From contig CANFUJ010000002.1 of the NCBI GenBank assembly GCA_947450165.1, positions 1 through 58,717 on the forward strand: DNA of 58,717 nucleotides. The letters run 5' to 3'. Below are positions 39,184-57,763 of the stretch, in pieces. Source of the stretch: Chitinophagaceae bacterium. Lineage in GTDB: Bacteria; Bacteroidota; Bacteroidia; Chitinophagales; Chitinophagaceae. The position numbers were made by a program, and so were the translations under genes. The notes beneath the pieces were generated by a model, which saw nothing but the letters and a program-made list of their open reading frames with translations, ran no database searches and had not been told where the DNA came from. Numbering within the stretch: position 1 is the first letter of the stretch; the number at the start of each line of letters is the position of its first letter.

Positions 39184-39690
39184 CTAAATAGTTTGTAATT
39201 TTTTTAAATCAAAAGTTGCATTTAATTTAACGCCCATGCTGTCTATATTAACAATGGCTTTATTATTTAAAACTTCCAAAACTATTCCTTTATAATTCAT
39301 CATTATGCCTTGTTGTACTATTACTTCATCGCCTTTTTGTAAGGGCTTATCAAAAACTTCAATATTTTCAAATTCTTGTAAGAACTTTTTTATATTAATA
39401 ATATCCGACTCTTTTACGATTGCAGGTTTACCTAACCAATGAACATAATTTAATATTCCATCAACTAATTTTATGTCCCATTTTTGTTTCTCTGCAATTT
39501 TTATAAAAAGGTATCCTTTGAATAAAGGTTCTTGTACTATTTTCTTTCGATCACTCCATTGTTTAACTACTCTATTTAATGGCAGATAATTTTCTATGCC
39601 ACGATTATCTAGCAATGTAGCAATTTTTTTCTCCCATCTAGGTCGGGTGTACACGACGTACCAGTTGACATTTTCTTGTATAAAAGACAA
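39184..39690 (-). CDS. UpxY/NusG-like transcription antitermination factor
   Basis: WYVVYTRPRWEKKIATLLDNRGIENYLPLNRVVKQWSDRKKIVQEPLFKGYLFIKI plus KOW-like KGDEVIVQQGIMMNYKGIVLEV. Start codon is TTG; no in-frame ATG upstream of the NGN domain. Confidence 0.88.
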   Translation of the reverse strand: MSFIQENVNWYVVYTRPRWEKKIATLLDNRGIENYLPLNRVVKQWSDRKKIVQEPLFKGYLFIKIAEKQKWDIKLVDGILNYVHWLGKPAIVKESDIINIKKFLQEFENIEVFDKPLQKGDEVIVQQGIMMNYKGIVLEVLNNKAIVNIDSMGVKLNATFDLKKLQTI

Positions 39691-39767: not shown

Positions 39768-42200
39768 TTATTTTCTTTTGAACAAACGCAAGAAAAATAA
39801 TCCAATATCTTTTATGTTTTTAAAACCAGGTGTATTGTCGTCATTTAAATAATAGCTGGTATCGGCTTTCCCATATGCATAACCATAACCATATCCATAA
39901 CCATATCCATAACCATATCCATAACCGTTACCATATCCGCCAAAACCATAATTAAATAAAGATATCCCTCTAGGTTTAATGCCATTAAACGCAATACACA
40001 TGTTATTAAATTTCTTTTCAGCATTAAATCCTTCAATCATTTTTACGAAAACGGTAGGCGTATGATTATGTCTGATTATAAACAAAGTAAGATTTGCATA
40101 ATCTGATAAAAGTTGTGCATCTGTTACTGGGCCAACTGGAGCGGTATCAATAATTACATAATCAAATTTTTCTTTTAGATACTCAATCATATCTTTAAAT
40201 TCTGTCTTGCTAATCAGCTCAGTTGGGTTAGGAGGAATTGGCCCAGAACCTAATAAAAATAAATTATTAAATTGAGTAGGTTTTATAATTTCATCAATAG
40301 TTGATTTATTAACTAAATGACTAGAAATTCCGATATCTCTTTTCATACCTAGCAGTTTGCTCAACTTCGGTTTTCTTAAATCCATTTCTAACAAAGCCAC
40401 CCTTTTTCCTGTTAAGGTTAAACTTATTGCTAAATTCAATGAAACGAAACTTTTTCCTTCTCCTGATATGCTTGAAGTTACCAACAGTACATTGTTTTTT
40501 TCGTTATACCCCATAAAATTGAGGTTAGTGCGCAAAGCCCTGAATTGTTCTGCAATAACAGTTCTTTTGCCTTCTGTAATTGCAATAGTTTCCCTATTTT
40601 TAGATTGTACAATTTCTCCAATTACTGGAACTTTTGTTCGTTTTTCAATTTCTGTTCTAAACATTATACGATTATTTAACTGCTCGTATAGTTGAACATA
40701 GAGAATGAAAATGATCAATCCGATTAAAAACCCAGACCAATAATAAGTGCTTGCTATTGGACTGATTGGTCCACTAAATGAACCTCGTTCCAAAACCCTA
40801 AGATCGGCGCTAGTTGATGCTGAGGACAATGCAGTTTCTTCTCTTTTTTGAAGTAAATAAGTGTAGATATTATTTTTAATGGCTTGTTGCCTGCTTATTT
40901 CCAAAAGTGCGCGTTCTTTTTGAGGAACAGAAGTATATAATTGTTTATTCGTTAAAATATTTTGTTCATTAATGCGCTTTTGAGTAAGTAAATTGCTTTG
41001 TAAGTTTCCTAAACTTTCTCTAATGCTACCTTTTAATTTTTCTACTTTTTCTGTAGCCAATAATACAATGTTGCTTTGCTTACCAGATGAAGCATTTGCT
41101 TGATCCAATTCAAATTCTGCAGCATACAATTGATTCAACAAACCCCTGAGGGTTTCGTCATTTAATAAAATTAATGATGGAACAGTACCTGTTTTTTTCC
41201 CTTTATTATTAATGTAATTAGACACATCTTTTAAAAGTTGTAATTGCAAATCAAGTGTACTATTTGCTTTATCTAATTCTTTAACGTTTTCAAAAAAAGT
41301 TGTGGCTTGTTCACCCAATTCTAAACCGCCTTCTCTTGTTTTAAATTGCTCAATATTTTTTTCTACACTATCTAGTTGATTAATAACGGTGTTTAATCTA
41401 TCCTCGATAAAGTTTAATGTTTTAGTGGCAATTTGATTTTTATCATCAATTCCAGCCTTGTTATAAACTTCAAAAAGTCTGTTTAAAATATCAATTCCTT
41501 TTTGAGGTAATGGGGTTTCTATTTTTACATCAATTACAGTGGATGCATAACTAATAGGGGCAACTTTTATAGATCCGATAATTCCTGCTGCGGTTGATTT
41601 GATAGAATTAAAAACGACAAAATAATTCTTACCAGAAAGATCTTTATTATAATTTAAGTTTGGTTGAATTTTATATTTGGTATTGCCTATTTTAAAATCC
41701 TCATAAAATGCAATCTTTCTACCATCAATTTCTAGTTTATTATTTTTCCAATCAATTTTAAAAAAAAATTTACCGCTGGATTCAATACTGTCTTTGTTTT
41801 GAGCAATAAAATATACCGGAGCATCACTTCCATAAAGTGATTCAACCTGAACCCTACCTTCATTAAAAACTGAAGCATATAAATCTAGTTCTTTTACCAC
41901 CTCTTCCATTAATGAAGAAGATTTCAGTACGACCAATTCATTTTCAACAATTTTTTTTTCGCTAAAAATATTTAATGCTTCTAATACTTTAGAATCGCTT
42001 CCTCCTTTTTGAGGGTCTTTCAATAAAACTTTGGAGGATGCAACGTAAATTTTTGTTTGAGATCGAAGCATAACAATTGATACAATAAGTGTAACAGTTG
42101 CTATAGAAACAAATATTGGCCAAAAAGGTAAATAACGAAAAATAATTTGAGTTAAAATCCCATCATTACTTTTCTGTACTTTTTCAAATTCTTCGTTCAT
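39768..42200 (-). CDS. Wzc-like polysaccharide co-polymerase / BY-family tyrosine kinase
   Basis: Wzz-like N-terminus, coiled coil, Walker A' VTSSISGEGKSFVSLNLA, VALLEMDLRKPKL, DYVIIDTAPVGPVTDAQLL, Tyr-rich tail. Confidence 0.95.
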   Translation of the reverse strand: MNEEFEKVQKSNDGILTQIIFRYLPFWPIFVSIATVTLIVSIVMLRSQTKIYVASSKVLLKDPQKGGSDSKVLEALNIFSEKKIVENELVVLKSSSLMEEVVKELDLYASVFNEGRVQVESLYGSDAPVYFIAQNKDSIESSGKFFFKIDWKNNKLEIDGRKIAFYEDFKIGNTKYKIQPNLNYNKDLSGKNYFVVFNSIKSTAAGIIGSIKVAPISYASTVIDVKIETPLPQKGIDILNRLFEVYNKAGIDDKNQIATKTLNFIEDRLNTVINQLDSVEKNIEQFKTREGGLELGEQATTFFENVKELDKANSTLDLQLQLLKDVSNYINNKGKKTGTVPSLILLNDETLRGLLNQLYAAEFELDQANASSGKQSNIVLLATEKVEKLKGSIRESLGNLQSNLLTQKRINEQNILTNKQLYTSVPQKERALLEISRQQAIKNNIYTYLLQKREETALSSASTSADLRVLERGSFSGPISPIASTYYWSGFLIGLIIFILYVQLYEQLNNRIMFRTEIEKRTKVPVIGEIVQSKNRETIAITEGKRTVIAEQFRALRTNLNFMGYNEKNNVLLVTSSISGEGKSFVSLNLAISLTLTGKRVALLEMDLRKPKLSKLLGMKRDIGISSHLVNKSTIDEIIKPTQFNNLFLLGSGPIPPNPTELISKTEFKDMIEYLKEKFDYVIIDTAPVGPVTDAQLLSDYANLTLFIIRHNHTPTVFVKMIEGFNAEKKFNNMCIAFNGIKPRGISLFNYGFGGYGNGYGYGYGYGYGYGYGYAYGKADTSYYLNDDNTPGFKNIKDIGLFFLRLFKRK
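39871..39950. repeat. 12-bp-period tandem repeat encoding (Gly-Tyr)n tail of the BY kinase
   Basis: ccataaccatat repeated; encodes YGFGGYGNGYGYGYGYGYGYGYGYAYGK. Confidence 0.9.
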
Positions 42201-42215
42201 GCAGATGTATTAAAA

Positions 42216-43025
42216 TTATTTAATGAGGGAATTCAAAATGATGATGATTAACGAGAACACAGATACACCAAGTGAAACCAAGATTTGTGCAGATCTCATC
42301 CTTTCCTCTTTATACGTTTTACTTAAGTCTGATTTTACATAAATAACATCATTGGGTTTTACATAATACCAAGAAGAACTTAGTAGAGCATGATCTTCGA
42401 GATTCACATGTTTCACTTGCTTAAAATTGATTGAATCTCTTATGATAATAATGTCATTAACAAAAGCATCTTTTCCTAAATCACCACACTTAACCAAAAC
42501 ATCTATTAATGGAGTATACTCTTCAGTTAAAAAAACAACTTGAGGAGCTTTTACTTCCCCCATAACTGTAACTTTTTTATTTAAAAACTGAACAGATACA
42601 ATTGGTTCTTTAAGAAAAGGCGTCAACTCTTTTTCAAGTTTTTCTCTAAGTTGATTTCTTGTTAAACCTTCAACTTGAACAAATCCTAAAAAATGAATAT
42701 TAATGCTTCCATTTTCATTCACTAAAAATCCATCGCCAAATTGGAAACCAGATTTTATCATTGCAGTTTGATTGAATTTTTCATCCAATTCTTTATTTAA
42801 ACTACTCACTGAAATTCCCAGTAAATCATTTTTTTTAATAGCAACTTCTGGAAGCTCGATTAAATTTGTCTGAATAATCGTATCTCTTACTAATTTATTA
42901 AAATAAGTTGTATTCTTTGGTACAGTACAAGATTGAGATAATGCAATTACGATATATAAAAGCAGATATGGTATTATCCGTTTGTATTTATCAAAGAAAA
43001 ATGAGTAAAATTGAGGCTTTGTCAT
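42216..43025 (-). CDS. Wza-like polysaccharide export outer membrane lipoprotein
   Basis: Lipobox-like ALSQSCTVPKNTTYF; IKKNDLLGISVSSLN; YVKPNDVIYVKSD; start reassigned to ATG 43025. Confidence 0.9.
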   Translation of the reverse strand: MTKPQFYSFFFDKYKRIIPYLLLYIVIALSQSCTVPKNTTYFNKLVRDTIIQTNLIELPEVAIKKNDLLGISVSSLNKELDEKFNQTAMIKSGFQFGDGFLVNENGSINIHFLGFVQVEGLTRNQLREKLEKELTPFLKEPIVSVQFLNKKVTVMGEVKAPQVVFLTEEYTPLIDVLVKCGDLGKDAFVNDIIIIRDSINFKQVKHVNLEDHALLSSSWYYVKPNDVIYVKSDLSKTYKEERMRSAQILVSLGVSVFSLIIIILNSLIK

Positions 43026-43249
43026 AATATTTATAGCTACTTGAATATAGCATTGAACATTAAACAAATTTCATTAAAAAAAACTACTTTGCCAATTTTT
43101 AAATCGATTGATTTCGATATTCAAAATAAAGAAGTTAATGGTTTAAATATTATATGATACTCACTTTCATCCATTCATTTTAAAAACTCTAAATTCATAA
43201 AAATAAATTCTTTTATTTCAATTTTTCAATGAATTGATTGCAAATAAAA

Positions 43250-43275
43250 AAAGACATGGATTTCTCCATGTCTTT
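43250..43275 (-). terminator. Rho-independent terminator downstream of the PID-CTERM-like gene
   Basis: AAAGACATGGA-TTTC-TCCATGTCTTT: perfect 11-bp stem; on the minus strand followed by a T-tract (TTTTTTTATTTG). Confidence 0.88.
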
Positions 43276-43300
43276 CTGTAAATTGATTTTGTTTAATTAA

Positions 43301-43510
43301 TTATTTTTTTCTTCTTGCATTTTTTGCACCAATTCCAATTCCTGCTGCAATTAATACTACCAACCCTCCATCAATAGGACAAGCTGGATCTAATGGATCT
43401 ACACATTCATCGGGTGGTGGCGGATCTTGTGCTATTGAGTCGAAATTAATTCCAATAGTTAATACAAGCAAAGCAACTCCTACAAAGGCAATTCTTAATT
43501 TATTTTTCAT
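43301..43510 (-). CDS. Small secreted protein with PID-CTERM-like exosortase sorting signal
   Basis: 69 aa: signal peptide MKNKLRIAFVGVALLVLTIGINFDSIAQ, Pro/Asp-rich linker DPPPPDECVDPLDPACP, then PIDGG + hydrophobic GLVVLIAAGIGIGA + basic KNARRKK. Confidence 0.8.
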   Translation of the reverse strand: MKNKLRIAFVGVALLVLTIGINFDSIAQDPPPPDECVDPLDPACPIDGGLVVLIAAGIGIGAKNARRKK

Positions 43511-43549
43511 CTTTAAAATTACTTGTTCACAAATTTAAGCGTTATTAGT

Positions 43550-46500
43550 TTAAAACAAAATCTTAAGACTTGTTTTTTTATTGTCTTGTCCAATTATTTC
43601 TAAAGTATAGTTACCATTTATCACCGATTTACTTAATGTGAAATCGTATTGAGTAGTAACTCCATCATGCTGAATTACTTTTCGCATAAACACTTGACCA
43701 AGGTTGTTGGTTAGTTTTAATGTATAACGTCCAGCAATAACATTTTTAAAACTAATGGTTGCTTTTCTATCCGATTTAATTGGGTTTGGATAAATCGAAA
43801 TCATTGGTTCTGCCTCATAAGAAACTTTTACAATTTTACTATACGCCACTTCTCCGGCAACACCCATACTGCGAATACGATAAAAATTAATTCCAGCAAA
43901 TGGAGATTCATCAACGTGTGCATATTCAGTTATTCCTGATGCTGACACAGTTCCTACTTTTACAAAGTTTACACCATTTGCAGATTTCTCTACTGCGTAT
44001 TCACGAATGTTAATTTCGTTTTCCACTTTCCAGTTAACATTAATATGGTCTTTTTGTTTTGTTGCTTTAACGTCCACAAACGTTACTGGCAAAGGACGCA
44101 ATTGCTTGAAAATAATTCGGAAACGATCAGACGCATACGCACCTACGTTAGTATTTACTGCAAAATCAAACGTTGATCTTTCTGATAAGCTAATCGGTGT
44201 TAAAGTGTTGGTATACTTATCTTCCAAATATGGTTGCACGTTAAATGATTCGATATTTTCTGGAATGAATTCAAAACGATAATTAGCAACACGCATTTGA
44301 TTCATTTTATAGAAAATAGTATCATTTTCAGTCAATGCTTTTCTAGATTCAATAGAAATTAATTTGTCATTTTTAACAATCGCAAAATTTTCTGTGGTAT
44401 TAGTAAATTTGGTTCCGTCTTCATCATCCACCTCATTGCTATATCCTTCATCAAATCTATTTAATACCCCATCATACAAGTCTGCAGTTCCATTTTGTAC
44501 TTTGTATAATCTTGTATAGAATTTCTGTTGATTTCTATTTTCTCTTTGAACAGATGCACTACCATCAATTTTATCGGTTTCTTTAATGGTCATTGAAGGA
44601 TTACCTGAATTCGTTTCAATAATAAACCCTTGAGCAGATTGGATATTGAAGTTGCCATTTGTATAGCTACCGCCATTATAAGCACTAGTTCCATCTTGAG
44701 CAACTGTAATCCAACCTCCATTTACGCCAATGCGTGGATCGTACAAATAATAGAAAGGTTTAAATCCACTGCGTGTTGCAGGTAATCTAATTGCACTTGC
44801 ATATGGATTTACAATTGAAGCAAATTTATTTGCAGAAGTTGGCAAATTAGAAATAGTGAAATCTCCTAGATTTAAAGCACCACGTTCTCTTAATACGGTT
44901 GTATCAGGCGTATCGGTAAACAATGTTTTCGCTCTACTACCTCTTACAAATAAAACGTATGGTTTTTGAGCATCAAACGCAACATTGGTAGTTGCCACTT
45001 CTTCCCAAGCTTGTGTATTGATATTAAATGTTTTTAATGATCCTCCATTGGCATTGTAAGAGTCAAATCCCAATGCTCTTGCTGCAGCATTGGTTCCACC
45101 AAATCTTGTGATGATTTGTGCACCAAATCCTGGATTAGGGTTGAAAATAGTTGTTGAATCACCATTTTCCTGCCAAGCTTGTTTGATTGTTTGAAGATTA
45201 TGCGTTGTTGGCATAGACAATAAACGCCATGCTTTCAAAGTTCTTGTACCATTTTTAAGATTCGATATAAATCTTTCTACACTTACATTTCCTGTAATTG
45301 TATTACCTGTGCTGTTTCCTGCATTAGTAATATCTGCTACACTTGCTGTTAAGGTATCATTAGATTTTAGCGTAAGGAAACTTCCTGTTGCAAAAGTTCT
45401 ATTACTGCCTGTAAATGATAATTTGTTTAAAAGATTCAATTGGCCTGCAAGTGTTATGGTTGAATTGTTTATAACTAAATTTCTCAAATTATTATTGCCA
45501 AATAAATTTGCAGGAATGGTTTGTGCTGAAGCTCCTGCCATTTCAATGGTACCCAATTTAGCATCCACATTACCCGAACCAGCATTAGTAATGTTTCCAT
45601 AAATATTCAACTTGCCTCCACTTAATATTTTTATGGTAGCCGCACTTCCGATTGTTAAGTCTTTTGCATAAGCAACAGGAGTTGTTGTATTGTCAATAAT
45701 TGGATAATTGGGTTTACCATTAGCGATGGTTACATTAGTATTTGAATTTGGTACGCTTCCACACCAGTTTATACCATCATTCCAATTTGTATTTACACCA
45801 GCCCATTGACCAATTCCTCCAGTGGTATTAAACTCATCAGCTCCCATATCAGGTGGTGATAATCTTGTAGTTCCATCGATATCTGTTGATATCCCTGCTA
45901 TATCAATACCTGTTCCATTAAATGCACAGTTTAAATTTCCATTCATGTGCAAACTATCCTGATTGTCTGATGAACGTGCAAACAATGGATCCAAAAGTTC
46001 TACTGAATTCAATTCCCTAGAACTTGATTGTAAAGAAGACAATGTTTGAAAATTATTCGATCCATCATAATACAAATAATTAGAAGAAGCTACAGCTCCA
46101 GCATAATATGCATTGTTGCTAGATGATGTACTATATTTTGTATTTGCTGTTAACTGGTTAGCTGAGGCCCTTAATATGGCTACATTTCCTGATGCACCTG
46201 GAGTCGCTTTATTTACAAACACGTTATTTCTAAATGTGTATATTGGATTATTTATATTCATATCTACAACGGAAGTACCAAAACTTGCCCCTCCTGTTCC
46301 ACCAATTCTTATTGTATTGAATGAAATATTATATGGAGTACCTCCAACTCCACCAGTAATATCAATACCTCTAACAGCATCACCGTTGTTTAACGAAGAA
46401 GATGAAGCCCCATCAAATGCCTGGGTCATATCCATTTCAATCATATTGTTATAAATACTAACAGGCGTTCCACTAGATGGAGATGTTCCAAGCCAGAATC

Positions 46501-49500
46501 CACGAGCAATACCAGCTGAGCCAAAAGGAACTAAATGTGCTACCCTATTGGTATACATTGATGTTACGCCAGTTCCTACTGGAATGTAAATACCTGTTAC
46601 CGTTGAATTATATGCAGTAGCATCATTATTATTTCTTACATAGATACTATCTATTCTGTTTAGGAAGACATTTCGAGCTGTAGATGTTGAAGTTGTTAGT
46701 CCGCCCAACTGCACCCCTACTATTGTATGCGTAGCAGAACTTCCCGCAGCAGCCGTTAAAAACAAGTTGCTTATTTTATTATCCGCAATAGTTTCAGTTG
46801 TTGCAGTTCCTAAAGTTGAATTTGTATTTAATCCCCATAACTTGCCAACATTAGTTGAATTGATATCTTTCAAACTAATTTTACGTATTGTATTTGCACT
46901 AAAACTAAATGTAGCTCCTGCTTTAGATCCACCTGAGAAAACACCATAAACATTTACACTACTCGCATTTCCTGAAGCCACCAATACATCATTGTTTTCT
47001 ATATTATTGTATTGAATGTTTAGATTACCGCAGTTGGTAACACTTGAAGGTTTTTGACTTATCCAACTTAATTCAGTAACACCAGAAATGGTTTTTGAAT
47101 TATTACTGATTATATTGGTATTGATCGTTTGTGTACCATAAACATTCGCATCAGATTGTAAACCAATAAATGTACCTGTTGCTAATATTGTATTTCCAGA
47201 AATGGTATTGTTGTTCATTGTAATAACACCAAGTGGTACACTATTGCCATTGGTTGTATTATAGATTCCTATCCATTTACCTGCACCAGCCATTGTACTA
47301 TTGGTAAAGCTATTGTTACTAATATTGATTGTACCAGGCGTAAGTGTTGATCCATTTTTAATTCCAGTTACAGATGCTGCAACGGTAGTAGTGACACCAT
47401 TTGGAATTTTCACATTCAATGTATTGTTTGTGATATTTATGATAGATGAAGTACCTCCTCCTGTATTGTTTTCAATACCAGCATATTTTTTATCCGCTGC
47501 TCCTGTAATGCTGATGTTGTTTTGCTTGATTACAATACTAGCTGTACCTACTGTGTTATCGGATTTAACACCATATTGATCTTCTGCATGACCAGCACCG
47601 GTAATGGTGTTGTAACCTATTAAAGCATTCAGTTGATTTTTAAGCAAAACACCTACAGAAACTTCAGTATTGTTTGAAGTAGTACCTCCACCTAAATTGG
47701 TAATTGAATTCCCTTTCGATGAAGTAATGGTATCACCCACTAAGTTATTTACATCCGCAAAAGATGCTTGATCATTTGCTGCAAAACCTATCAAACCTAT
47801 ACCCACATTTACATTGCTAATGGTGTTAGATATAAATGTATTGTTAGAATTTGCACCCGTAACGTTTGTAGGTGTCAATAAAGTATTTGCATCAATTGCA
47901 GTAGCGTTTGTCAAAGCAATACCCGTAGCTCCGTTGAAGAAATTAGTAGATAAAGTAGTATTGTTTTTATTTAAAGTAATGGTACAGTTTTTAATCGTGT
48001 CATTTTGAGCACCATCAGCCACACCTAATTTAAATAAACCATAACCATATTCCATTTGAGATGCAGCAGTGGTATTACTTGCATTTTCTCTGATGTCAAT
48101 TCCGTCAATGGTAACATAGTCCACCCCACGCAAACTCCATATACCATCTGGTGTGGTAGATGTTGATGTTGCCGTTCCTCCAGTATATGCCGTAATCAAA
48201 GGATTTGTTCCTGCACCATTTTTCTCGAATCTAATTGTTTTGGTAGATGTGGTATTATTTAAAGTAGCACTACCCAAAGCCAATGAGCTGGTCAATGTTT
48301 CGGTATATCCCGGAGCTACTTTAAATACTACAGATGCTGATACCCCATTTGCATTTAAATAGGTAACAGCTGCTGCTATAGTTGAGAATACTTTACAATC
48401 ATTTAAACTAGTTGTTGGTATATAATACGTTCCACTCAAAGCTCCTGAAGTTGGACCTGTCGTTACAGACCATAAACCAGAAGGATTAGTAGTTGCCGAA
48501 CATCCGTTACTTGTAATGACTGCATAGTAATATAAAGAACTTACCACATTTGATAGAGGCGAGTATGTATTTGTTTGTGCACCATTTGCCGAACCTAAAC
48601 TTGTACCTCCAACATTTGAGTTTGATGTATTACTAAACCATTGATATGTAGGTGAAGGTGAAGTAGACGAAACAGAAACTGTTGTTGTTGTAAATGCTGA
48701 ATTCAAACAAGTGGTATATGAAGTATTTGGAGGATTACCAACAGCAACCAAAGATTTCACCTTAATTGTAAATGAAGTTGATGCTGCACTCGAGCAACCT
48801 GTGGTTGAATTTCTTACAGAAATGTTTCCTGTGTATGTTGAGCTAGCTGTTGTACTTGCTGGAACCACAATTGTAATTGGTGATGTTGGCAAAGTAGCAT
48901 TTGATACAGCGGCAAAGCTATTGGATGGTGTAGCAACCCAGGTAATACTATACTGATTTGCTCCATTGGTTGTTCCTGTAAACTCTAATACTGAGTTTTG
49001 AGCAGAAGTACTAAAGCAAACTGAATCGGCTAAATTATCAGTTAATGTAATTGTAGGCAATGTATTTACTGTCATAGCTGCGGATACATCACTTGTGGTA
49101 GGACAAACACCACTCGTTACAGTACAATAATAATATGTTGTGCCCGCCAAATTATTTGGCAAAGTATAAGACGCAGCAGTTGCAGTAGGAATTGATGTAC
49201 CTCCAGCATTACTGTTTGTTGAATTGCTAAACCACTGATATGTAGGACTTGAAGCAGATGTGGTTACAGATACTGTTGATGGTGCAAAAGCAGTATTCAA
49301 ACAAGTACTTTGTGCAAGCGTACTCGGCTGTACTGTTATTGATGGTGCTGAGTTTACTGTTATGGTTGCTGCACCAGAACTTACATTCGTACAAGAAGCT
49401 GTATTTACTATTGCTCTGAATAAAGTGGATTGAGTAAGGTTTAAATATGCATAACTAGTTGTGGTATTGGCTATTGTTGTCCAGCTGGTTCCTCCATCAG

Positions 49501-52500
49501 TGGATTGCTCCCATCTGGTAATACTTGTTACGCCAACTGATCCTGTTAAAGTTAAAGTAGCACCATTACTTCCGCTACAAACACTAGAATCTCTATTTAC
49601 TTTACCCGCACCACTCGATATTTCATCTGCACCGATATCCGATGGATCTAATCTGGTATCACCATCATAATCTGTAGCAAATAAAGGCGTTCCCACCACC
49701 ACATTTTCAAAACTACTGTTGCTAAGTACGCAAGCGGTAATGTGTAAGTCTCCGGTTGCAGGTGCAACAAATGTAGGTTGAGCAGAAATTGATCCAGACT
49801 CCGCACCTAAACGTGTACGCATACCAGCAATTGTTTGCTCAGAATTGGTTCCATCAAAGTACAATAAATTCGTGGTAGAAGGAGTACCTGCAAAAAATGA
49901 ATTATAATTTGAGGAAGTAGAATAATTTGTAAGTGCAGCTGCATTTCTTTTAAAAGCAACAATTAAACCACCACCAACAGTTGTACATTGGTTACTGATA
50001 ATGTTACCTTTTAAAGTCAGGTTCATATAAGTTGCGTTTGACAAATTACTTTGAAAAATACCACTTGATGCAAAAAATGAAGTACCTGTACCTGCCAAAC
50101 GAATATTGTTGTTATATATATTTAATGAACAAGCCAAAGCTACAATTGAAGTCAAATCAATTCCGCGGATTCCATCTGTATTTACAGCTCCAGTGTTTAT
50201 TGCTGTTCCTGAAGCTACAGAAGGAACTCCTGTAGTTAAATCTATTGATATAAAGTTATTATAAACATTGGCAACCCCATTTGTTGATAAAGATGCCACA
50301 GCAATACCTTTTGCAATAGAACCTGGTGTAGCACTTTGACCTGGGTAAAGACCATAAATCTTATTCTTAATGATATTCACAGTGAGTCCTGTGTTATTTC
50401 TTATGGCAGTAATACTTGCAGTATATCCTGCATTAGCATATAATGTGTTGATGTTGTTGTTTGTAATAGTTTTTGTACCACTAGTTGTATTTGTATAAAT
50501 ACCATTAATAACATTCACTGCTGTTGAAGTAGAAGAACCTTTTAAATAAATTTGATTTATTGAGTTATTGGTATATGTTTCACTTGGTATTGCAGTAAGA
50601 GCCCTTATACCACTGATAGTCATTATAGATGTTGATGCAGCATTTACATTGATTCCTAAATTAGATATTGTATTGTTATCCAATGAATAAGTTGAAGTAC
50701 CTCCTAAATTAAATCCTGCAATTTCAAGTGTAGCAGCTGTTGTTCCAGTATTGTTAACAGCATTATTTGTTATGTTATTATTATTCATGTTTACAGCACA
50801 ATTTGTAGTGCCAGCAAAACCAATCATATAAATTAACGATCCAGCAGTTGGAGTTCGTAAAAAACTATTGTTTTTTATTTCGTTACTGTTAATTGTTGCA
50901 GATAATGAAACTAATGCGGTAATAGCTGAATATATGCCATATGTTGTAATGGCAGTACCACTATTATTTAAGGTATTATTTTGTATGATATTACCACTCA
51001 TATTAACTATTGTACAACCACCACCATTATATACGCCACGCCACTCTCCAGATCCACTCATCGTCATGTCTTGTACTGTATTATTGCTCATATTTAAATT
51101 GGCAACTGCAGCAGTACTGTTGATAGCATAAAAATTACCAGCAGTTTGACTACCATTGGTACCAGTAATGATATTATTACTGATATTTACGCCATTTCCA
51201 TTTAAAATGATATTGCCAATTAAATTATCAATTCCATATGCGCTTTGTGTACTACCATTATTTATGGTTATATTATTATACGTTATGTTAGTAGTATCGG
51301 CACTTACTCCAGATTCTCCATAAATTCCACGAACAATAGCTCCAGATGGATTAGCTGTAGCACCATTATTATTATTGATGGTATTATAAGATGCGTTTAC
51401 ATCAAATTGGCCTCGCAAACGAATTCCATTTACTTCATTTACCAAGCCAGTGCCTCCAAAATTGGTAATGGTATTACCTGTTGATAATGATGAACCTCCC
51501 ACATCGTTCAGTGTATCACGTCCGGCATTGGTACCCGTATATCCACTAAGTCCGATTCCTATACTACAATTGGAAATGGTATTGGAATAAAATTTATTTC
51601 TTGAATTCCCTCCATCAATTGTAGATGGTGTTAATGCTGTTGTGGCTACATTCACAATTGAGTTGTATGAAGCAATACCTACCGAACCTGTTAATACAGG
51701 GATAGTGCCTGTTGTATTATTTGCTTTGTTTAGGGTTATCACACAATTTTTAATGGTATTATTTTGTGCACCATCATTGGCTGTGCTAAATGCTATAACA
51801 GCTCCTGGTTGAATTGTTATACTAGGAGTTGTTGATGTGGTAAAACTTGTTGCATTTATAACAGAAGCTACTGTAACTCCGGCTGCATATGCACCTGTTC
51901 CAGAGATTACACTAACTGTAGCGCCTACAGTAATTCTTGATGTGTTTCTAACGTTTATCGTAGTTGTGGTTACAGCTGAAGTAGTTACTCCAGTAGTATC
52001 ATAACCTTTAAACAATCCATATCCATACTCCATCAATGCTGCAGCGGTGGTAGTGGTGTTAGCATCTACTAAGTCTATTCCATCTATTGTTACATAATCT
52101 ACCCCACTCAAACTCCACATACCATCAGGTGTTTGGTCTGTTGGTAATTTTGTTCCAACATAAGAAGAAGCACCTGTTGTAATAATTGGATTTGCTCCTA
52201 CTCCATTTTTCTTAAACGTTATTGTTCTTCCCAATGCAGTATTTGCATTTAATAAAACACTGCCTAAATCCAATCTACGGGTTGAAGTTTCGGTATAATC
52301 TGCGGCTACATTAATAATAACATTACCAGAAACACCCCATTTATTTAAAGTATCAACTGCATTTCTAATTGATGCAAAGTTTCTACAAGATGCTCCACCA
52401 TTGGGAATATAGTAAGTACCCAGCAAACCTGAACCTGTTGGTTCATTTGCATTTTGTGTAATGACAACATTTGCTGATGTAGCCGAACATGAAGTGCTGG

Positions 52501-55500
52501 TTTGAGTTACAGTTACGGAATATGTTGCAGGAGTAGTTATTAATTGACTTGCATTGGTAGAACCATTACTCCACAAAACTGAATAGCCTGCACCTGAAGG
52601 ACTTGCTGATAAACTTATCGTTTGTTGCAAACAAGTTAATATGGTCGCACCACTTGAGTTGTTTGTAATTGTAACAACTGGAGGCGTATTTACGGTTATG
52701 GTTGCTGCTGCATTTGTAAATCCTGTTGTACGGTTACATCCATTTACATCAGTTACAGATGTAAGTGTGTAATTGGTTGTTGTGGTTGGATTAACACTTG
52801 CATTAAATGGTGTACCACTTGAAATACTATTGTAAGTAACACCATTCACTATTAGAGTGTATGGTCCACTTCCTGAGGTAGCCGTAAATGTTAATTGTCC
52901 AGTTCCACCTGTACAAATTGTGTTTGCCGATAAACTACCTTGAGGCGTTGGATTCACCACTTGTGTTAATGTTGCAGTTGCAGGATTAGGCAATCCACAA
53001 CCATCAGGAGTCATTCTAACTTCGATGTTATAATTAGCTGTTGCTGATCTTGAAAATGTTGCAGTTGTACTAGGGCTTCCTTGACTTACTCCATCTACAA
53101 AAAATTGATATAATGGCGCAGTACCACCACCAGTTGGGTTTGCAGTAAATGTTTTAGATACGCCACTACAAATGGCTGTTGATGGCGTTAATGTTACAGA
53201 AGCTACTGTGCTGCTACTAACCGTCATCGTTATGGTGTTGGAAGTAGCTGGATCATTTGTTGTACAAGCAGAAAAATTCGAAACGAATACCACTTTTATT
53301 TGGTCTCCATTCGCAGGAATATAATCATAAGTACTATCGGTACTTGGTCCCTGAACAGATATATTGTTTTTGAAAAATTGATATGTTGATGTAGCGGTTC
53401 TATTAGAAGGAACAGCAGAATAAACTACATTGATGCCTGTACAAGAAGTAGAACCTACAGAGCTACTTAAGGTTACACTTATTGGTGTGTAATTAGTTAC
53501 TGTAATTGTTTTAGGTAAACTAACGGCTGGTACCGGAATAACGCATGGTTCGTTGGAATACATTTTTACAGTAACTACTTGTCCGTTAGTCAATGAGTTT
53601 GTAGTGTATGTAGCGACAGTACTTCTAGATCTCACTATAGTCCCATTTATTAAAAATTCGTATTCTGGAGTATCCCCAGGGAATGCTTGAGGTAGTGCGG
53701 TAAAAGTAACACTTGTACCCGCACAAATACTTGTAGCTGATGCGTTCAATAAAACACTATCACGGTTTACTGTATTAACCAAAACCTCAACAGAGTTACT
53801 CACAAATTGGTTTGAGCTAGCACAGTTAATAGTTAAAGGATTAACCAACATTACGCATTGAACCACATCTGCATCGCTTAATCTTATGTTGGTTAATGAT
53901 CCAGGAAAACGAATGCTATCGGAGGTATTATATAGTGTTGTAACTGCAACATCGTTCACGAAAAATTTAAAACCCGCTGGATAAGTTGCATTTCCACCGT
54001 TAACAGCGGTAGCTTTAAATGTGATGGTATCACTTGGGCAAATTGCACCAGCTGGGCGAGTTAAAGCTATGGTTACACTAGGAGTTACATCTCTGTAAGT
54101 AATTCTAGTTGTATCTAATTTAGTACATGTAGTACCAGCAGTTGCAATATAATCAATAATTGTACCATTAGGCGCAGTTGATTTAATATAAACAGTTGGC
54201 GCATTTGTTCCTAATGTATATGGTATCGTTGCTGCAGCATCTCTATATAAGTAGGTTGCAGGACTCCATGTTATTTGCGCCTGTGAACCATTTGCGAATA
54301 AACCACCAGTTGTTCTTAAACTATCCGTATTAGGAGATACACAAATGGTATCTGCTTGTGGATTGATAACTACATTTGAAGGGAATGGATTTATTATTGC
54401 TACAATTGGGATTAGATTACTTTCGCAATCACCATAATTTGCCTTTACATAATAAGTGGTATTGGTTGAAATAACTGGCGTTGTGTATGTAGAACCTGTA
54501 CCTACTAAAGTTGTACCTGCTGCATTTGAAAACCATCTAATTGTAACACCTGCTACTGATGAGCTTGCTGTTAATAATACTGCCCCCGACCCACAAACAT
54601 TCGTTGCAGAACTTACCGTCAATACAGGTGTTGGCGTTACCAATACTTTTACTGCAGTGAATGTTGTTGTATTTCCACTACAAGTAACAAGACATTGATA
54701 CCAAGTTGTAGTTGTTATGTTTGTTGGAGAATAGGTTGGCAAACTTGAAGCCCCTGCTATATTATTGTATGTTATTCCATCACTCGAGCTTTTCCATTGA
54801 TAAGATAATCCGCCTGGTAAGGTAGCTGCATTAGACAATGACAAATTCGTAGACCCACCTGAACATACTGTATCTATACTTGCAAGTACATTTCCTAATG
54901 GGGGTGCGCCACTACAAGATGGTGGCGTATAGCAACTAATCGTTCCTGCCCATCCAGCAGCATTTAAAGTAGCATTTGATTTGAATACAAATGTTAATCC
55001 ACCATTGGTTGTATTTGAAGAAGTTATTGTACCTGGGTTAGTTGTGTATGCGCCTAATAAAGGAGCTGCTGTACTATTACCATCATACACTTTTAATGTA
55101 TCGGAAGGATCAAGCGTAAAACTAGAAAAGACTACTCTAGAAAAAGGTCCATTTACAGAACCTGCCGATGTTGGTGTTATGGTAAATGTTCTGTTTTGAT
55201 TTTCTGTATAATTTGCTGAAGCACCTCCATTATCATAGAAACTTGCATTACATGTAGCCAAAGTTGCACTTGTTGGCATGTTAATACAAGTTGGATCAAC
55301 AATTACTTGTACTTGTGTTGAGGAAGTTACTCCACCACCAGCAGATGTACATCTTACGGTTGCTCTATAATAAGTAGATGCCGTCAATGAACTTACCACA
55401 TAAGTGTTTGATGTAGCTCCTGTAATATCTGTCCATGATGCACCTGTGGGTGAGCTTTGCCATTGGTACTGAATATTCGTTGCATTAATGGTGTTAGAAG

Positions 55501-57763
55501 TTGATAAAGTGGTTGTTCCTCCATAACATACTGTTGTGTTAGAGGCAACGGTATTTCCAGGATTAGGAGTTCCTGAACAAGAGTTATCTACATAACAAGA
55601 AATAGTAGCTACCCAACCAGATGAAACTTGAGAGCCATCTGATTTAAATACAAAAGTTAATGATCCATCAGCTGCAGTTGAACTTACTACACCTGGAGAA
55701 GTAGAACCATAATAAGAACCGGCAGGTGCAGTTGTTGCATTTAAGCCAGCTGGTAATCCTGACGAAATTAATGGAGATCCAGTGCTATTCCCATTGTAAA
55801 TCATCAAACCATCATAATTATTTTCAGTACTAAATGATGTAAAAGTTGCACGAACTTTCAAACCAGGTGTGCCAGGTCTAAATGTTACTGTACCATTGGA
55901 ATTGTTTATATAGTCTGCTCTGGTGCCACCTCCATCTGTAAATATTGCAGAACAAGTTGTAGAAGTTAACGTTGTACCATCTGAAGGCATCAAAACCTCA
56001 TCGCAGTTTGAAAATTCTATTTGTATTGATGTACTAAATGCTGGTGTCGCTGATGCTGCTGTACATGTTACTTTACATCTAAAATAAACGTTTGAAGTTG
56101 GTGTTGCTGTGAAAGTTGCAGAAGTAGCTCCAGTTATATCACTCCAAGAACTATTATCTACTGATGATTGCCATTGATACGTAACCCCAGCAATATTGTT
56201 ATTTGCTATTGATAAAGTTGTGGTATATCCATTACATACAAAAGTAGAAGTTGCCAAAGTTGCACCTGGCGTTGGCGTTGCATCACATGGAAGGTTACAT
56301 GAAACTGTTGCAGTCCAACCTGCATTTTGAATAATATTATCCGATCTAAAAACAAAAGTTAATGATCCTGAAGGGTCTGTAGAAGTGATGGTACCAGGCG
56401 AAGTTGTTCCATAAAATGAACCTGCAGGTGCAGTAGTTGCATTGAAACCTGCGGCCAATCCTGAACTAATTAAATTAGCAGGATCAACATTTCTACCATT
56501 ATAAATCATCAACCCATCATAACCATTCTCTGTATTAAAACTATTAAAAACCACTTTTACATTCGCGCCACTAGTTCCAGGATTTATGGTTAATTGCCTT
56601 ACTTCACTTGCTGAATAAGAAGCTGTTGGTCCTCCAGCATCATAGAAAGTTGCCGAACAAGTAGACACCTCTGCGCTAACTGGCATCACTATACATGTGT
56701 TGTCGTAAATAACTGTTGTTGGTGTTGAAAAACCAGAAGCGCCACTTGAAGTACATGTTACCCTACAACGATATTGTGTTGTGGTTGTTGGTGTTGCAAC
56801 ATATGTAGCATTAGTACCTAATCCTGTTACAGATTGCCATGTAGCCCCAGCATCAATTGATTGTTGCCATTGGAAAGTTGTTGCAAGCGCAAATGTTTCA
56901 AATGATAAATTCACCGTAGCGCCAGATGAAGCACAAACAGAGTTCAAAGACGCAAAAGTTCTTCCAGGAGTTGGAGTGCCTGAACAAGGAGGAGGTGGAT
57001 TAAAAGTATATGTTTGTCCTCTTGCAGGTAATGTTGCTAGATTATTGGTGCTTGTTGTAGAACTGGCATTTGGTGTTGCTCCTGTTCCATCTAATGATAA
57101 AAATACACCACTTGCAGTTGCAATACCAATTGATGCTGATGGTGTATTCAATACACCACCTGGTATTTGATCATAAACAAACTCAACAGCTCCAGTTGTT
57201 TGATATAATTTAATTTGAAAATTTATTGCTGCTTCAGGAACAGTTGCAAGATATCTCCATTGAACATTGGTGAATTGAATGGTTAAAATTCCACCAGCTG
57301 ATTTGTAAGTAATGTCTCTTCCAATGTCTGAAATTTCATTATCATCCCACAATGCTGCAATAAGTGGCGATTTTGGAATAGCGGCAAAATTATTGGTTAG
57401 ACCTGAATTTGTAATATTGTTATCGCCATTGTTACCAAGCGTAATCCATCCATTGGTGCTCACGTTAAATTCATTGTAAGTCACCCCTCCAAATGTAAAA
57501 TCAAATCCTATTGGAAATCCATTGGCAAATCCATCATCACTATTTCCATTGTCTATCAAAATCGGGTCGCCACTTATATCAGAGTACCCTGCATTAGAAG
57601 CAGTGAAACTATATTGACTTGCAGTTTGTGCAGATAATTTTGTAGTAGTTGAAATAGCAACAAAAAAGAACAGTGGCATCAATAAAAAATAAAGACGCTT
57701 TGATGCTGTTTTTTTGTTATTCACATTCATTTGCCTTGCATTTGTAAGGTAGAATTTACGCAT
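43550..57763 (-). CDS. Giant modular T9SS-secreted adhesin (Ig-like, CUB-like, two parallel beta-helix blocks, type A T9SS C-terminal sorting domain)
   Basis: Uninterrupted 4737-codon ORF; signal peptide (probable start ATG 57730: MNVNNKKTASKRLYFLLMPLFFFVAISTTTKLSAQ); C-terminus EPMISIYPNPIKSDRKATISFKN...GRYTLKLTNNLGQV...GNYTLEIIGQDNKKTSLKILF. Confidence 0.93.
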   Translation of the reverse strand: MRKFYLTNARQMNVNNKKTASKRLYFLLMPLFFFVAISTTTKLSAQTASQYSFTASNAGYSDISGDPILIDNGNSDDGFANGFPIGFDFTFGGVTYNEFNVSTNGWITLGNNGDNNITNSGLTNNFAAIPKSPLIAALWDDNEISDIGRDITYKSAGGILTIQFTNVQWRYLATVPEAAINFQIKLYQTTGAVEFVYDQIPGGVLNTPSASIGIATASGVFLSLDGTGATPNASSTTSTNNLATLPARGQTYTFNPPPPCSGTPTPGRTFASLNSVCASSGATVNLSFETFALATTFQWQQSIDAGATWQSVTGLGTNATYVATPTTTTQYRCRVTCTSSGASGFSTPTTVIYDNTCIVMPVSAEVSTCSATFYDAGGPTASYSASEVRQLTINPGTSGANVKVVFNSFNTENGYDGLMIYNGRNVDPANLISSGLAAGFNATTAPAGSFYGTTSPGTITSTDPSGSLTFVFRSDNIIQNAGWTATVSCNLPCDATPTPGATLATSTFVCNGYTTTLSIANNNIAGVTYQWQSSVDNSSWSDITGATSATFTATPTSNVYFRCKVTCTAASATPAFSTSIQIEFSNCDEVLMPSDGTTLTSTTCSAIFTDGGGTRADYINNSNGTVTFRPGTPGLKVRATFTSFSTENNYDGLMIYNGNSTGSPLISSGLPAGLNATTAPAGSYYGSTSPGVVSSTAADGSLTFVFKSDGSQVSSGWVATISCYVDNSCSGTPNPGNTVASNTTVCYGGTTTLSTSNTINATNIQYQWQSSPTGASWTDITGATSNTYVVSSLTASTYYRATVRCTSAGGGVTSSTQVQVIVDPTCINMPTSATLATCNASFYDNGGASANYTENQNRTFTITPTSAGSVNGPFSRVVFSSFTLDPSDTLKVYDGNSTAAPLLGAYTTNPGTITSSNTTNGGLTFVFKSNATLNAAGWAGTISCYTPPSCSGAPPLGNVLASIDTVCSGGSTNLSLSNAATLPGGLSYQWKSSSDGITYNNIAGASSLPTYSPTNITTTTWYQCLVTCSGNTTTFTAVKVLVTPTPVLTVSSATNVCGSGAVLLTASSSVAGVTIRWFSNAAGTTLVGTGSTYTTPVISTNTTYYVKANYGDCESNLIPIVAIINPFPSNVVINPQADTICVSPNTDSLRTTGGLFANGSQAQITWSPATYLYRDAAATIPYTLGTNAPTVYIKSTAPNGTIIDYIATAGTTCTKLDTTRITYRDVTPSVTIALTRPAGAICPSDTITFKATAVNGGNATYPAGFKFFVNDVAVTTLYNTSDSIRFPGSLTNIRLSDADVVQCVMLVNPLTINCASSNQFVSNSVEVLVNTVNRDSVLLNASATSICAGTSVTFTALPQAFPGDTPEYEFLINGTIVRSRSTVATYTTNSLTNGQVVTVKMYSNEPCVIPVPAVSLPKTITVTNYTPISVTLSSSVGSTSCTGINVVYSAVPSNRTATSTYQFFKNNISVQGPSTDSTYDYIPANGDQIKVVFVSNFSACTTNDPATSNTITMTVSSSTVASVTLTPSTAICSGVSKTFTANPTGGGTAPLYQFFVDGVSQGSPSTTATFSRSATANYNIEVRMTPDGCGLPNPATATLTQVVNPTPQGSLSANTICTGGTGQLTFTATSGSGPYTLIVNGVTYNSISSGTPFNASVNPTTTTNYTLTSVTDVNGCNRTTGFTNAAATITVNTPPVVTITNNSSGATILTCLQQTISLSASPSGAGYSVLWSNGSTNASQLITTPATYSVTVTQTSTSCSATSANVVITQNANEPTGSGLLGTYYIPNGGASCRNFASIRNAVDTLNKWGVSGNVIINVAADYTETSTRRLDLGSVLLNANTALGRTITFKKNGVGANPIITTGASSYVGTKLPTDQTPDGMWSLSGVDYVTIDGIDLVDANTTTTAAALMEYGYGLFKGYDTTGVTTSAVTTTTINVRNTSRITVGATVSVISGTGAYAAGVTVASVINATSFTTSTTPSITIQPGAVIAFSTANDGAQNNTIKNCVITLNKANNTTGTIPVLTGSVGIASYNSIVNVATTALTPSTIDGGNSRNKFYSNTISNCSIGIGLSGYTGTNAGRDTLNDVGGSSLSTGNTITNFGGTGLVNEVNGIRLRGQFDVNASYNTINNNNGATANPSGAIVRGIYGESGVSADTTNITYNNITINNGSTQSAYGIDNLIGNIILNGNGVNISNNIITGTNGSQTAGNFYAINSTAAVANLNMSNNTVQDMTMSGSGEWRGVYNGGGCTIVNMSGNIIQNNTLNNSGTAITTYGIYSAITALVSLSATINSNEIKNNSFLRTPTAGSLIYMIGFAGTTNCAVNMNNNNITNNAVNNTGTTAATLEIAGFNLGGTSTYSLDNNTISNLGINVNAASTSIMTISGIRALTAIPSETYTNNSINQIYLKGSSTSTAVNVINGIYTNTTSGTKTITNNNINTLYANAGYTASITAIRNNTGLTVNIIKNKIYGLYPGQSATPGSIAKGIAVASLSTNGVANVYNNFISIDLTTGVPSVASGTAINTGAVNTDGIRGIDLTSIVALACSLNIYNNNIRLAGTGTSFFASSGIFQSNLSNATYMNLTLKGNIISNQCTTVGGGLIVAFKRNAAALTNYSTSSNYNSFFAGTPSTTNLLYFDGTNSEQTIAGMRTRLGAESGSISAQPTFVAPATGDLHITACVLSNSSFENVVVGTPLFATDYDGDTRLDPSDIGADEISSGAGKVNRDSSVCSGSNGATLTLTGSVGVTSITRWEQSTDGGTSWTTIANTTTSYAYLNLTQSTLFRAIVNTASCTNVSSGAATITVNSAPSITVQPSTLAQSTCLNTAFAPSTVSVTTSASSPTYQWFSNSTNSNAGGTSIPTATAASYTLPNNLAGTTYYYCTVTSGVCPTTSDVSAAMTVNTLPTITLTDNLADSVCFSTSAQNSVLEFTGTTNGANQYSITWVATPSNSFAAVSNATLPTSPITIVVPASTTASSTYTGNISVRNSTTGCSSAASTSFTIKVKSLVAVGNPPNTSYTTCLNSAFTTTTVSVSSTSPSPTYQWFSNTSNSNVGGTSLGSANGAQTNTYSPLSNVVSSLYYYAVITSNGCSATTNPSGLWSVTTGPTSGALSGTYYIPTTSLNDCKVFSTIAAAVTYLNANGVSASVVFKVAPGYTETLTSSLALGSATLNNTTSTKTIRFEKNGAGTNPLITAYTGGTATSTSTTPDGIWSLRGVDYVTIDGIDIRENASNTTAASQMEYGYGLFKLGVADGAQNDTIKNCTITLNKNNTTLSTNFFNGATGIALTNATAIDANTLLTPTNVTGANSNNTFISNTISNVNVGIGLIGFAANDQASFADVNNLVGDTITSSKGNSITNLGGGTTSNNTEVSVGVLLKNQLNALIGYNTITGAGHAEDQYGVKSDNTVGTASIVIKQNNISITGAADKKYAGIENNTGGGTSSIINITNNTLNVKIPNGVTTTVAASVTGIKNGSTLTPGTINISNNSFTNSTMAGAGKWIGIYNTTNGNSVPLGVITMNNNTISGNTILATGTFIGLQSDANVYGTQTINTNIISNNSKTISGVTELSWISQKPSSVTNCGNLNIQYNNIENNDVLVASGNASSVNVYGVFSGGSKAGATFSFSANTIRKISLKDINSTNVGKLWGLNTNSTLGTATTETIADNKISNLFLTAAAGSSATHTIVGVQLGGLTTSTSTARNVFLNRIDSIYVRNNNDATAYNSTVTGIYIPVGTGVTSMYTNRVAHLVPFGSAGIARGFWLGTSPSSGTPVSIYNNMIEMDMTQAFDGASSSSLNNGDAVRGIDITGGVGGTPYNISFNTIRIGGTGGASFGTSVVDMNINNPIYTFRNNVFVNKATPGASGNVAILRASANQLTANTKYSTSSSNNAYYAGAVASSNYLYYDGSNNFQTLSSLQSSSRELNSVELLDPLFARSSDNQDSLHMNGNLNCAFNGTGIDIAGISTDIDGTTRLSPPDMGADEFNTTGGIGQWAGVNTNWNDGINWCGSVPNSNTNVTIANGKPNYPIIDNTTTPVAYAKDLTIGSAATIKILSGGKLNIYGNITNAGSGNVDAKLGTIEMAGASAQTIPANLFGNNNLRNLVINNSTITLAGQLNLLNKLSFTGSNRTFATGSFLTLKSNDTLTASVADITNAGNSTGNTITGNVSVERFISNLKNGTRTLKAWRLLSMPTTHNLQTIKQAWQENGDSTTIFNPNPGFGAQIITRFGGTNAAARALGFDSYNANGGSLKTFNINTQAWEEVATTNVAFDAQKPYVLFVRGSRAKTLFTDTPDTTVLRERGALNLGDFTISNLPTSANKFASIVNPYASAIRLPATRSGFKPFYYLYDPRIGVNGGWITVAQDGTSAYNGGSYTNGNFNIQSAQGFIIETNSGNPSMTIKETDKIDGSASVQRENRNQQKFYTRLYKVQNGTADLYDGVLNRFDEGYSNEVDDEDGTKFTNTTENFAIVKNDKLISIESRKALTENDTIFYKMNQMRVANYRFEFIPENIESFNVQPYLEDKYTNTLTPISLSERSTFDFAVNTNVGAYASDRFRIIFKQLRPLPVTFVDVKATKQKDHINVNWKVENEINIREYAVEKSANGVNFVKVGTVSASGITEYAHVDESPFAGINFYRIRSMGVAGEVAYSKIVKVSYEAEPMISIYPNPIKSDRKATISFKNVIAGRYTLKLTNNLGQVFMRKVIQHDGVTTQYDFTLSKSVINGNYTLEIIGQDNKKTSLKILF
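45830..48450 (-). repeat. Second beta-helix block of the giant adhesin (paralogous copy)
   Basis: GTYYIPTTSLNDCKVFSTIAAAV...TPDGIWSLRGVDYVTIDGIDI...QMEYGYGLFK...DIDGTTRLSPPDMGADE. Confidence 0.8.
49625..52440 (-). repeat. First beta-helix block of the giant adhesin (paralogous copy)
   Basis: GTYYIPNGGASCRNFASIRNAV...TPDGMWSLSGVDYVTIDGIDL...LMEYGYGLFK...DYDGDTRLDPSDIGADE. Confidence 0.8.
54894..56964 (-). repeat. Three consecutive ~0.7-kb Ig-like + CUB-like repeat units
   Basis: Unit markers CSGTPTPGRTFAS, CDATPTPGATLA, CSGTPNPGNTVA, CSGAPPLGNVLA near 56964, 56265, 55557, 54894 (spacings 699, 708, 663 bp). CUB-like cores NGYDGLMIYNG / NNYDGLMIYNG / SDTLKVYDG. Confidence 0.85.

Follow-up and report, generated by a model that had tools for sequence, protein, structure and literature searches.

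PID-CTERM genes preferentially adjoin the genes of T9SS type A cargos in which a RemA-type module is present, and across genomes exosortases co-occur with that module. The functional partnership of the PID microprotein with the T9SS cargo is well supported and, judging by comparative sequence data, very probable; the anchoring step within it is one that we infer. The window, i.e., the whole stretch of 58,717 nucleotides analysed here, carries one such pair, and the overall explanation that its microprotein and giant adhesin form one surface-display module is offered with slightly less than even confidence. Bacteroidota exosortases, so far known by their phenotypes, would gain a job through this partnership, which also bears on how T9SS adhesins of type A stay on the cell in bacteria other than Porphyromonas and its relatives. 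With a partnership of phylum-wide extent, a large cargo module that has no model acquires a candidate function, and both the exosortase role and adhesin retention become testable by simple deletions. Among open-access papers, nothing relevant was found on PID-CTERM, XrtX, XrtY or a PID-T9SS partnership; the curators of the PID_CTERM, XrtX, XrtY and XrtX-associated models may already be aware of parts of the neighbourhood.

The gene pair and its transcription

The minus-strand order in the window is adhesin, gap, microprotein, terminator and then a long polysaccharide locus with the OPX gene first. The giant T9SS type A cargo ORF (43550..57763, minus strand; 4737 aa) has CUB and CHU_C-associated Ig_7 domains, and its stop codon is separated by 39 nt from the ATG of the 69-aa PID-CTERM microprotein gene on the same strand (43301..43510). 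An intrinsic terminator with a 13-bp stem lies 3' of the microprotein gene (43248..43277, minus strand; one seen vs 0.1 expected by shuffling; -17.1 kcal/mol, z -5.1). The two ORFs, the gap, the strong terminator and their coordinates were all given correctly in the first-pass annotation. The T9SS sorting domain that it assigned to the adhesin was likewise recovered, as type A (43556..43795, minus strand), by TIGR04183 with 32.7 bits (cut-off 23) when the C-terminus was scanned alone. The same model misses the adhesin when the full 4737 aa or the whole genome is scanned, and Pfam Por_Secre_tail is sub-threshold (20.4 vs 27); by these profile scores the domain is weak but real. AlphaFold models the 188 C-terminal residues as two beta-sandwiches (pLDDT 89.9). 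Foldseek, queried with the fn3+CTD model, returned unspecific matches (generic FN3 plus PorU). There are 46 TIGR04183 places in the window genome.

It had also been suggested that the adhesin and the microprotein constitute a two-gene transcription unit, against which a promoter within the gap would speak. The gap has no terminator hairpin, but a promoter is predicted in silico exactly there. The candidate -7 box TAAATTTG (43530..43537, minus strand) lies in the gap and a candidate -33 TTG (43556..43558, minus strand) lies 18 nt before it, in the last codons of the adhesin. Together, TTG-N18-TAAATTTG (43558..43530) follows the Bacteroidetes promoter pattern, in which the -7 box has the consensus TAnnTTTG, and ends 19 nt before the microprotein ATG. 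The box is enriched across relatives: TAnnTTTG occurs at most 50 nt from the PID start in 13/28 EPS-linked loci (shuffles expect 1.6, maximum 5), 7/25 other pairs of the genus and order (0.7 expected) and 26/64 class loci (1.7 expected), and 37/50 boxes cluster 20-40 nt upstream of the PID ATG. At the starts of the neighbouring operon genes it was seen in 0/43 (OPX), 3/41 (Wzc) and 0/37 (UpxY) cases. Because of this conserved Bacteroidetes promoter box in the gap, the window microprotein is probably also transcribed alone, from its own promoter, and a single shared transcript for adhesin and microprotein is doubtful. Since the gap has no terminator and a strong one follows the microprotein gene, a short microprotein-only transcript accompanied by read-through from the adhesin is likely. 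Terminators downstream of PID genes are common in the relatives as well (71/93 vs 26.7 shuffled). Pairs with gaps of less than 25 nt, where the box is almost absent (1/23), are for that reason probably true two-gene operons.

Conserved adjacency and the RemA-type module

The adjacency, which the first-pass annotation proposed to score across Bacteroidetes, is conserved far past the genus. For the first set, the surroundings of every PID-CTERM match in 148 related genomes were tabulated; the class sample consisted of 395 genomes with 92 loci examined, and the phylum sample of 299 genomes with 25 new loci, many of the sampled genomes being incomplete MAGs. An ORF was counted as the upstream neighbour if it was on the same strand, at least 100 aa long and ended at most 350 nt upstream of the PID gene. 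The C-terminus of this ORF contained TIGR04183 in 59/69 cases in the Chitinophagaceae genus and order (the window included), in 51/68 in the class sample and in 20/22 in a second class. In the first set, a T9SS gene was the upstream neighbour of 53/88 PID genes vs 15/553 other genes of the same loci (p 5e-40), an excess of about 20-fold. Three second-class genomes, with one main exosortase each, have a T9SS gene before 18 of the 20 PID copies listed; with two copies of a fourth genome added, the count is 19/22. The order and strand of the T9SS and PID genes are the same in many families of two classes, many of the pairs lie outside EPS surroundings, and trios of T9SS, PID and exosortase genes occur often. 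Where Wzc and PID-exosortase genes are arranged divergently, a T9SS gene lies between them in 6 loci and is absent in 15. A scan of named genomes gave only four loci, in Chitinophagaceae/Bacteroidia MAGs. One locus (L279, G782:C109) has a single T9SS cargo gene followed by two tandem PID genes. Taken together, the functional link of the microprotein to the T9SS cargo, which had been put forward from the window alone, is likely, because the adjacency is conserved past the genus and an exosortase is encoded in the same locus; what has become doubtful is the 'one transcript' part of that argument.

The upstream proteins share more than the sorting domain. Those of the second class are homologous across approximately 480 C-terminal residues, well past it, and an iterated profile seeded with the window adhesin reached 111/126 upstream proteins, all groups taken together. 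The common part is a module of approximately 390 residues (44108..45394 in the window, minus strand), here represented by profile A6 (26 aligned sequences, the window sequence included; length 389), for which Pfam and NCBIfam have no model. The module was derived from the very loci in which the adjacency had already been seen, so finding it in the training set is no proof by itself, and the independent test of the link is genome co-occurrence. Among PDB sequences, A6 matched F. johnsoniae RemZ (E 9e-34) and RemA (2.5e-29, positions 2-387 of 389), both T9SS type A substrates, and more weakly kelch-repeat proteins, the latter apparently for compositional reasons. No lectin domain was found by Pfam in any adhesin segment, and the name RemA-type module is therefore used instead of RemA. 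AlphaFold modelled the module with pLDDT 85.0 and pTM 0.87, and Foldseek found no fold match for this model in the PDB (best E 0.42). Only the CTD is well resolved in the RemZ structure (PMC10994853), so the predicted module fold may be one unseen so far.

On the sequence evidence, it is the RemA-type module that defines the PID partner, not giant size or the sorting domain alone; the first-pass annotation, with its emphasis on a giant T9SS adhesin, missed this feature. Partners in the order of the window are indeed very large (19 complete ones in relatives, 2599-6075 aa). Giant size as the defining feature is ruled out by partners of approximately 800-1100 aa in other clades. One PID-linked T9SS cargo (L158, G206) has an Ice_binding domain (Pfam, 130 bits), which means that PID partners are not all classical adhesins. 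Three relatives (G011:C2, G009:C93 and G026:C1) have four to five tandem module-bearing giant T9SS proteins upstream of the EPS locus, with a PID gene only at the giant adjoining the EPS genes.

Of the 148 relatives, 83 have both the module and the PID/exosortase system, 9 have the module only, 6 the system only and 50 neither (p 2.6e-23); the corresponding counts were 69/4/3/12 in the genus alone (p 3.5e-9) and, for module vs PID in the 395 class genomes, 148/80/6/161 (p 1.2e-40), all of which are correlations across related genomes with p-values not corrected for phylogeny. An exosortase-family protein was present in 39/45 module-positive, PID-negative genomes vs 6/20 module-negative ones. 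T9SS sorting domains were found in all 22 module-negative genomes tested (7-143 each), so the correlation does not merely reflect the presence of T9SS. Four near-complete genomes (G008, G035, G040 and G042) encode an XrtY-like exosortase and a module-bearing cargo with no PID-CTERM match, and may have an unrecognised exosortase substrate.

The PID peptide, the exosortase and the polysaccharide locus

The PIDGG-TM-RRKK tail ascribed earlier to the microprotein is supported by the NF046080 PID_CTERM model, which matches residues 45-68 with 30.5 bits (cut-off 26) and finds no other copy above the cut-off in the genome. Alignment with relatives places PIDGG-LVVLIAAGIGIGAKNA-RRKK, with a single TM, at the extreme C-terminus (residues 45-69; profile match at 43307..43378, minus strand). 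The N-terminus resembles a typical Sec signal peptide with cleavage between SIA and Q, all signal peptides having been assessed by eye. Between these parts is the predicted mature linker QDPPPPDECVDPLDPAC (residues 28-44; 43379..43429, minus strand; parsed by rule, with inferred cleavage sites), which includes a conserved cysteine pair. With the microprotein as query, a PDB search returned nothing, and no match to it was found in phages.

Predicted mature linkers have a median length of 18 residues and contain 27% Pro, 15% Gly and 1% Lys. Of 172 distinct linkers, 77 are without cysteine and 88 contain a pair; in the remaining 7 the parsing rule had wrongly included signal-peptide cysteines, and with these set aside every linker has either none or two. 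This parity points to an intramolecular disulfide in the cysteine-containing linkers. A lipidated single cysteine was considered and is ruled out, the linker cysteines being paired or absent. Three types of linker are seen in the class sample, namely CxxxxC (CWPPPC type, 38), CxxxxxxC (CDPLDPAC type, 30) and Cys-free, and they seem to depend on lineage. The N-terminal residue is Gln in 103/172 linkers, and according to the Bacteroidetes Q-rule an N-terminal Gln becomes pyroglutamate (PMC5837995, PMC10653852), as would be expected of the Gln-starting PID linkers. Lys is present in only 20/172, so in most linkers the C-terminus made by the exosortase would be the only reactive end.

The window exosortase (9176..9799, minus strand; 207 aa) is encoded in the same locus, 34 kb from the microprotein gene. 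It exceeds the cut-off of the TIGR04178 superfamily model (34.3 vs 23 bits) but not that of NF046083 (XrtY; 110.2 vs 160 bits), which none of the 148 relatives exceeds either, and is hence called XrtY-like. Its catalytic residues Cys107, Arg148 and His168 are conserved (58/58, 58/58 and 57/58, respectively). Exosortases are considered to cleave their substrates at the motif and to hand the resulting C-terminus to an acceptor compound (PMC7468200), and haloarchaeal exosortase relatives are reported to lipidate their substrates (PMC7157517). Regularly after the exosortase gene in class loci (e.g., L186, L193, L199 and L205) there is a gene of approximately 155 aa, of which two upstream-placed copies match NF046082, the XrtX-associated membrane protein.

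The polysaccharide locus begins with EPS operon gene 1, an outer-membrane polysaccharide export protein of the Wza/OPX type (42216..43067; Pfam Poly_export, SLBB), followed by a Wzc-type chain-length determinant/tyrosine kinase (39768..42200; TIGR01007 153.6 bits, cut-off 108) and an UpxY-family antiterminator (39184..39690; NF033644 136.7 bits, cut-off 100), all on the minus strand. Genes for amino and amidated sugars abound in the locus (WbuX, AglZ/HisF2, amidotransferases, aminotransferases), and its amino-sugar polysaccharide is a possible acceptor for the exosortase. The adjoining WbuX, AglZ/HisF2 and HisH genes (24125-26609) make up an acetamidino-sugar modification set, and a NodU-type carbamoyltransferase gene (7428-9155) is directly beside that of the exosortase. 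The two asparagine-synthase-like amidotransferases (36371-38164 and 16013-17830) score 350 and 331 bits, below the cut-off, with the XrtA-system amidotransferase model; in relatives, a gene of 590-600 aa recurs at the same position.

A proposed tether, its alternatives and related systems

The tether and docking mechanism proposed here is tentative, with a chance that we put below even. Sec export and signal peptidase would yield a Pro-rich, disulfide-closed peptide of approximately 17-20 residues, with its CTERM anchoring it in the inner membrane. The XrtY-like exosortase would then cut at PIDGG and transfer the peptide C-terminus to an envelope acceptor, either a lipid or the amino-sugar polysaccharide of the locus, and the tethered peptide would arrive at the outer surface. 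There, RemA-type cargos exported by T9SS would dock on it via their module, in cis in the case of the cargo encoded by the neighbouring gene and probably in trans in the case of the remaining module-bearing cargos, and would thereby be retained on the cell or the polysaccharide. The oxidised QDPPPPDECVDPLDPACPID peptide would then be a candidate ligand of the module. Owing to its probable own promoter, the window microprotein would be made independently of the giant adhesin and likely in excess of it. Only one of about 5-6 module-bearing cargos in the window genome has a PID neighbour, so any action of the PID peptide on the others must be in trans, and for the 80/228 module-positive class genomes without a detectable PID gene the proposal requires a different exosortase substrate. 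The mechanism may also differ between EPS-linked pairs and those located elsewhere.

In F. johnsoniae, colonization, biofilm formation and zorbs are lost in mutants without xrtF or the gene next to it, just as they are in deletion mutants of porU, porZ, porV or sprA (PMC10936215), and RemA is held on the surface whereas AmyB, also a type A cargo, is released (PMC12618676). Both observations lend the proposed tethering independent support, and the tethering, if true, would explain the likeness of exosortase and T9SS-attachment mutants. The function of RemA reportedly depends on polysaccharide export of the Wza/Wzc type, a dependence in keeping with an adhesin gene that adjoins an EPS operon. 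A wider, two-sortase form of the proposal is possible but doubtful: the exosortase product would be a disulfide-closed, pyroglutamate-capped tether and the RemA-type module its receptor, and T9SS type A adhesins across Bacteroidota would be held on the cell or on polysaccharide in this way, whether in place of the A-LPS linkage of Porphyromonas or in addition to it. It is just as doubtful whether, as this form would have it, the exosortase manufactures a tether and sorts no working protein.

According to another explanation, which we find unlikely, the exosortase would join the PID peptide to the exopolysaccharide and so retain the latter on the cell, with the adhesin as a co-regulated neighbour that binds the same polysaccharide and not the peptide. 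The PEP-CTERM protein PepA, whose gene is transcribed from a promoter of its own and separated from the next one by a terminator, is proposed to retain EPS in this manner, since upon its overexpression soluble EPS becomes bound (PMC9850573). The PID gene of the window, like that of most genus relatives, does head an OPX-Wzc-UpxY EPS locus in which the exosortase is encoded too, and the amino and amidated sugars made by the window locus (WbuX, AglZ/HisF2, amidotransferases) suit such a role. Many T9SS-PID pairs, however, reside in EPS-free loci, several pairs may occur with one exosortase in a genome, and the exosortase system tracks the cargo module.

Quite improbable is an unprocessed microprotein which its CTERM keeps in the inner membrane, where it would help large module-bearing cargos to assemble, or act as their chaperone, while they cross the periplasm. 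Such a helper would suit the very large partners of the order and a microprotein that is only an anchor and a linker, but the microprotein matches a curated sorting-signal model, an exosortase with conserved catalytic residues co-occurs with it, and partners of approximately 1000 aa also exist. Incidental linkage, i.e., co-inheritance of PID and T9SS surface genes in variable regions with no joint action, might be expected from the abundance of T9SS genes and from most module-bearing cargos being without a PID neighbour; the excess over other genes of the same loci, the order and strand kept in many families of two classes and the genome-wide co-occurrence of module and exosortase already disfavour it, and we regard it as highly improbable. 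The least probable reading, that PorU ligates the cargo C-terminus onto the PID peptide in place of A-LPS, is chemically conceivable, since PorU joins cargo C-termini to the amine of an amino-acid-bearing linking sugar (PMC7468200), but is disfavoured because most linkers, with their N-terminal Gln expected to become pyroglutamate and their lack of Lys, would have no free amine.

The closest known counterparts of the proposed surface display each share a part of it. RemA and RemZ of F. johnsoniae are, like the window cargo, T9SS-exported surface adhesins with the module of approximately 390 residues directly before the type A CTD. They are shorter, however (1436 and 1114 residues, respectively, in the PDB entries), than the 4737-aa window cargo, in which CUB and Ig_7 domains but not a lectin domain were found; no PID partner of RemA is described in the literature compared, and orthology with the window cargo is not claimed. 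SprB-SprF and the other pairs of a type B cargo and a PorP-like protein likewise consist of a T9SS cargo and its own neighbouring partner, by which it is kept on the surface (PMC9143113), but there the partner is an outer-membrane beta-barrel and the CTD is of type B, whereas in the window they are a 69-aa exosortase substrate and a type A CTD. The PEP-CTERM/exosortase A system of Aquincola with PepA resembles the window in signal peptide, motif-TM-basic tail, exosortase, EPS locus, promoter and terminator (PMC9850573); the window differs in its PID motif, tiny mature peptide and T9SS cargo neighbour. XrtF of F. johnsoniae is also a Bacteroidota exosortase, the loss of which phenocopies the loss of T9SS attachment genes (PMC10936215), but it belongs to a separate exosortase subfamily. 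Finally, GlyGly-CTERM and rhombosortase act together with T2SS, i.e., a CTERM sorting enzyme is combined with a separate outer-membrane secretion system (PMC7468200), as is proposed here, the difference being that the GlyGly-CTERM tag is on the secreted protein itself and the PID-CTERM tag of the window is on a separate microprotein.
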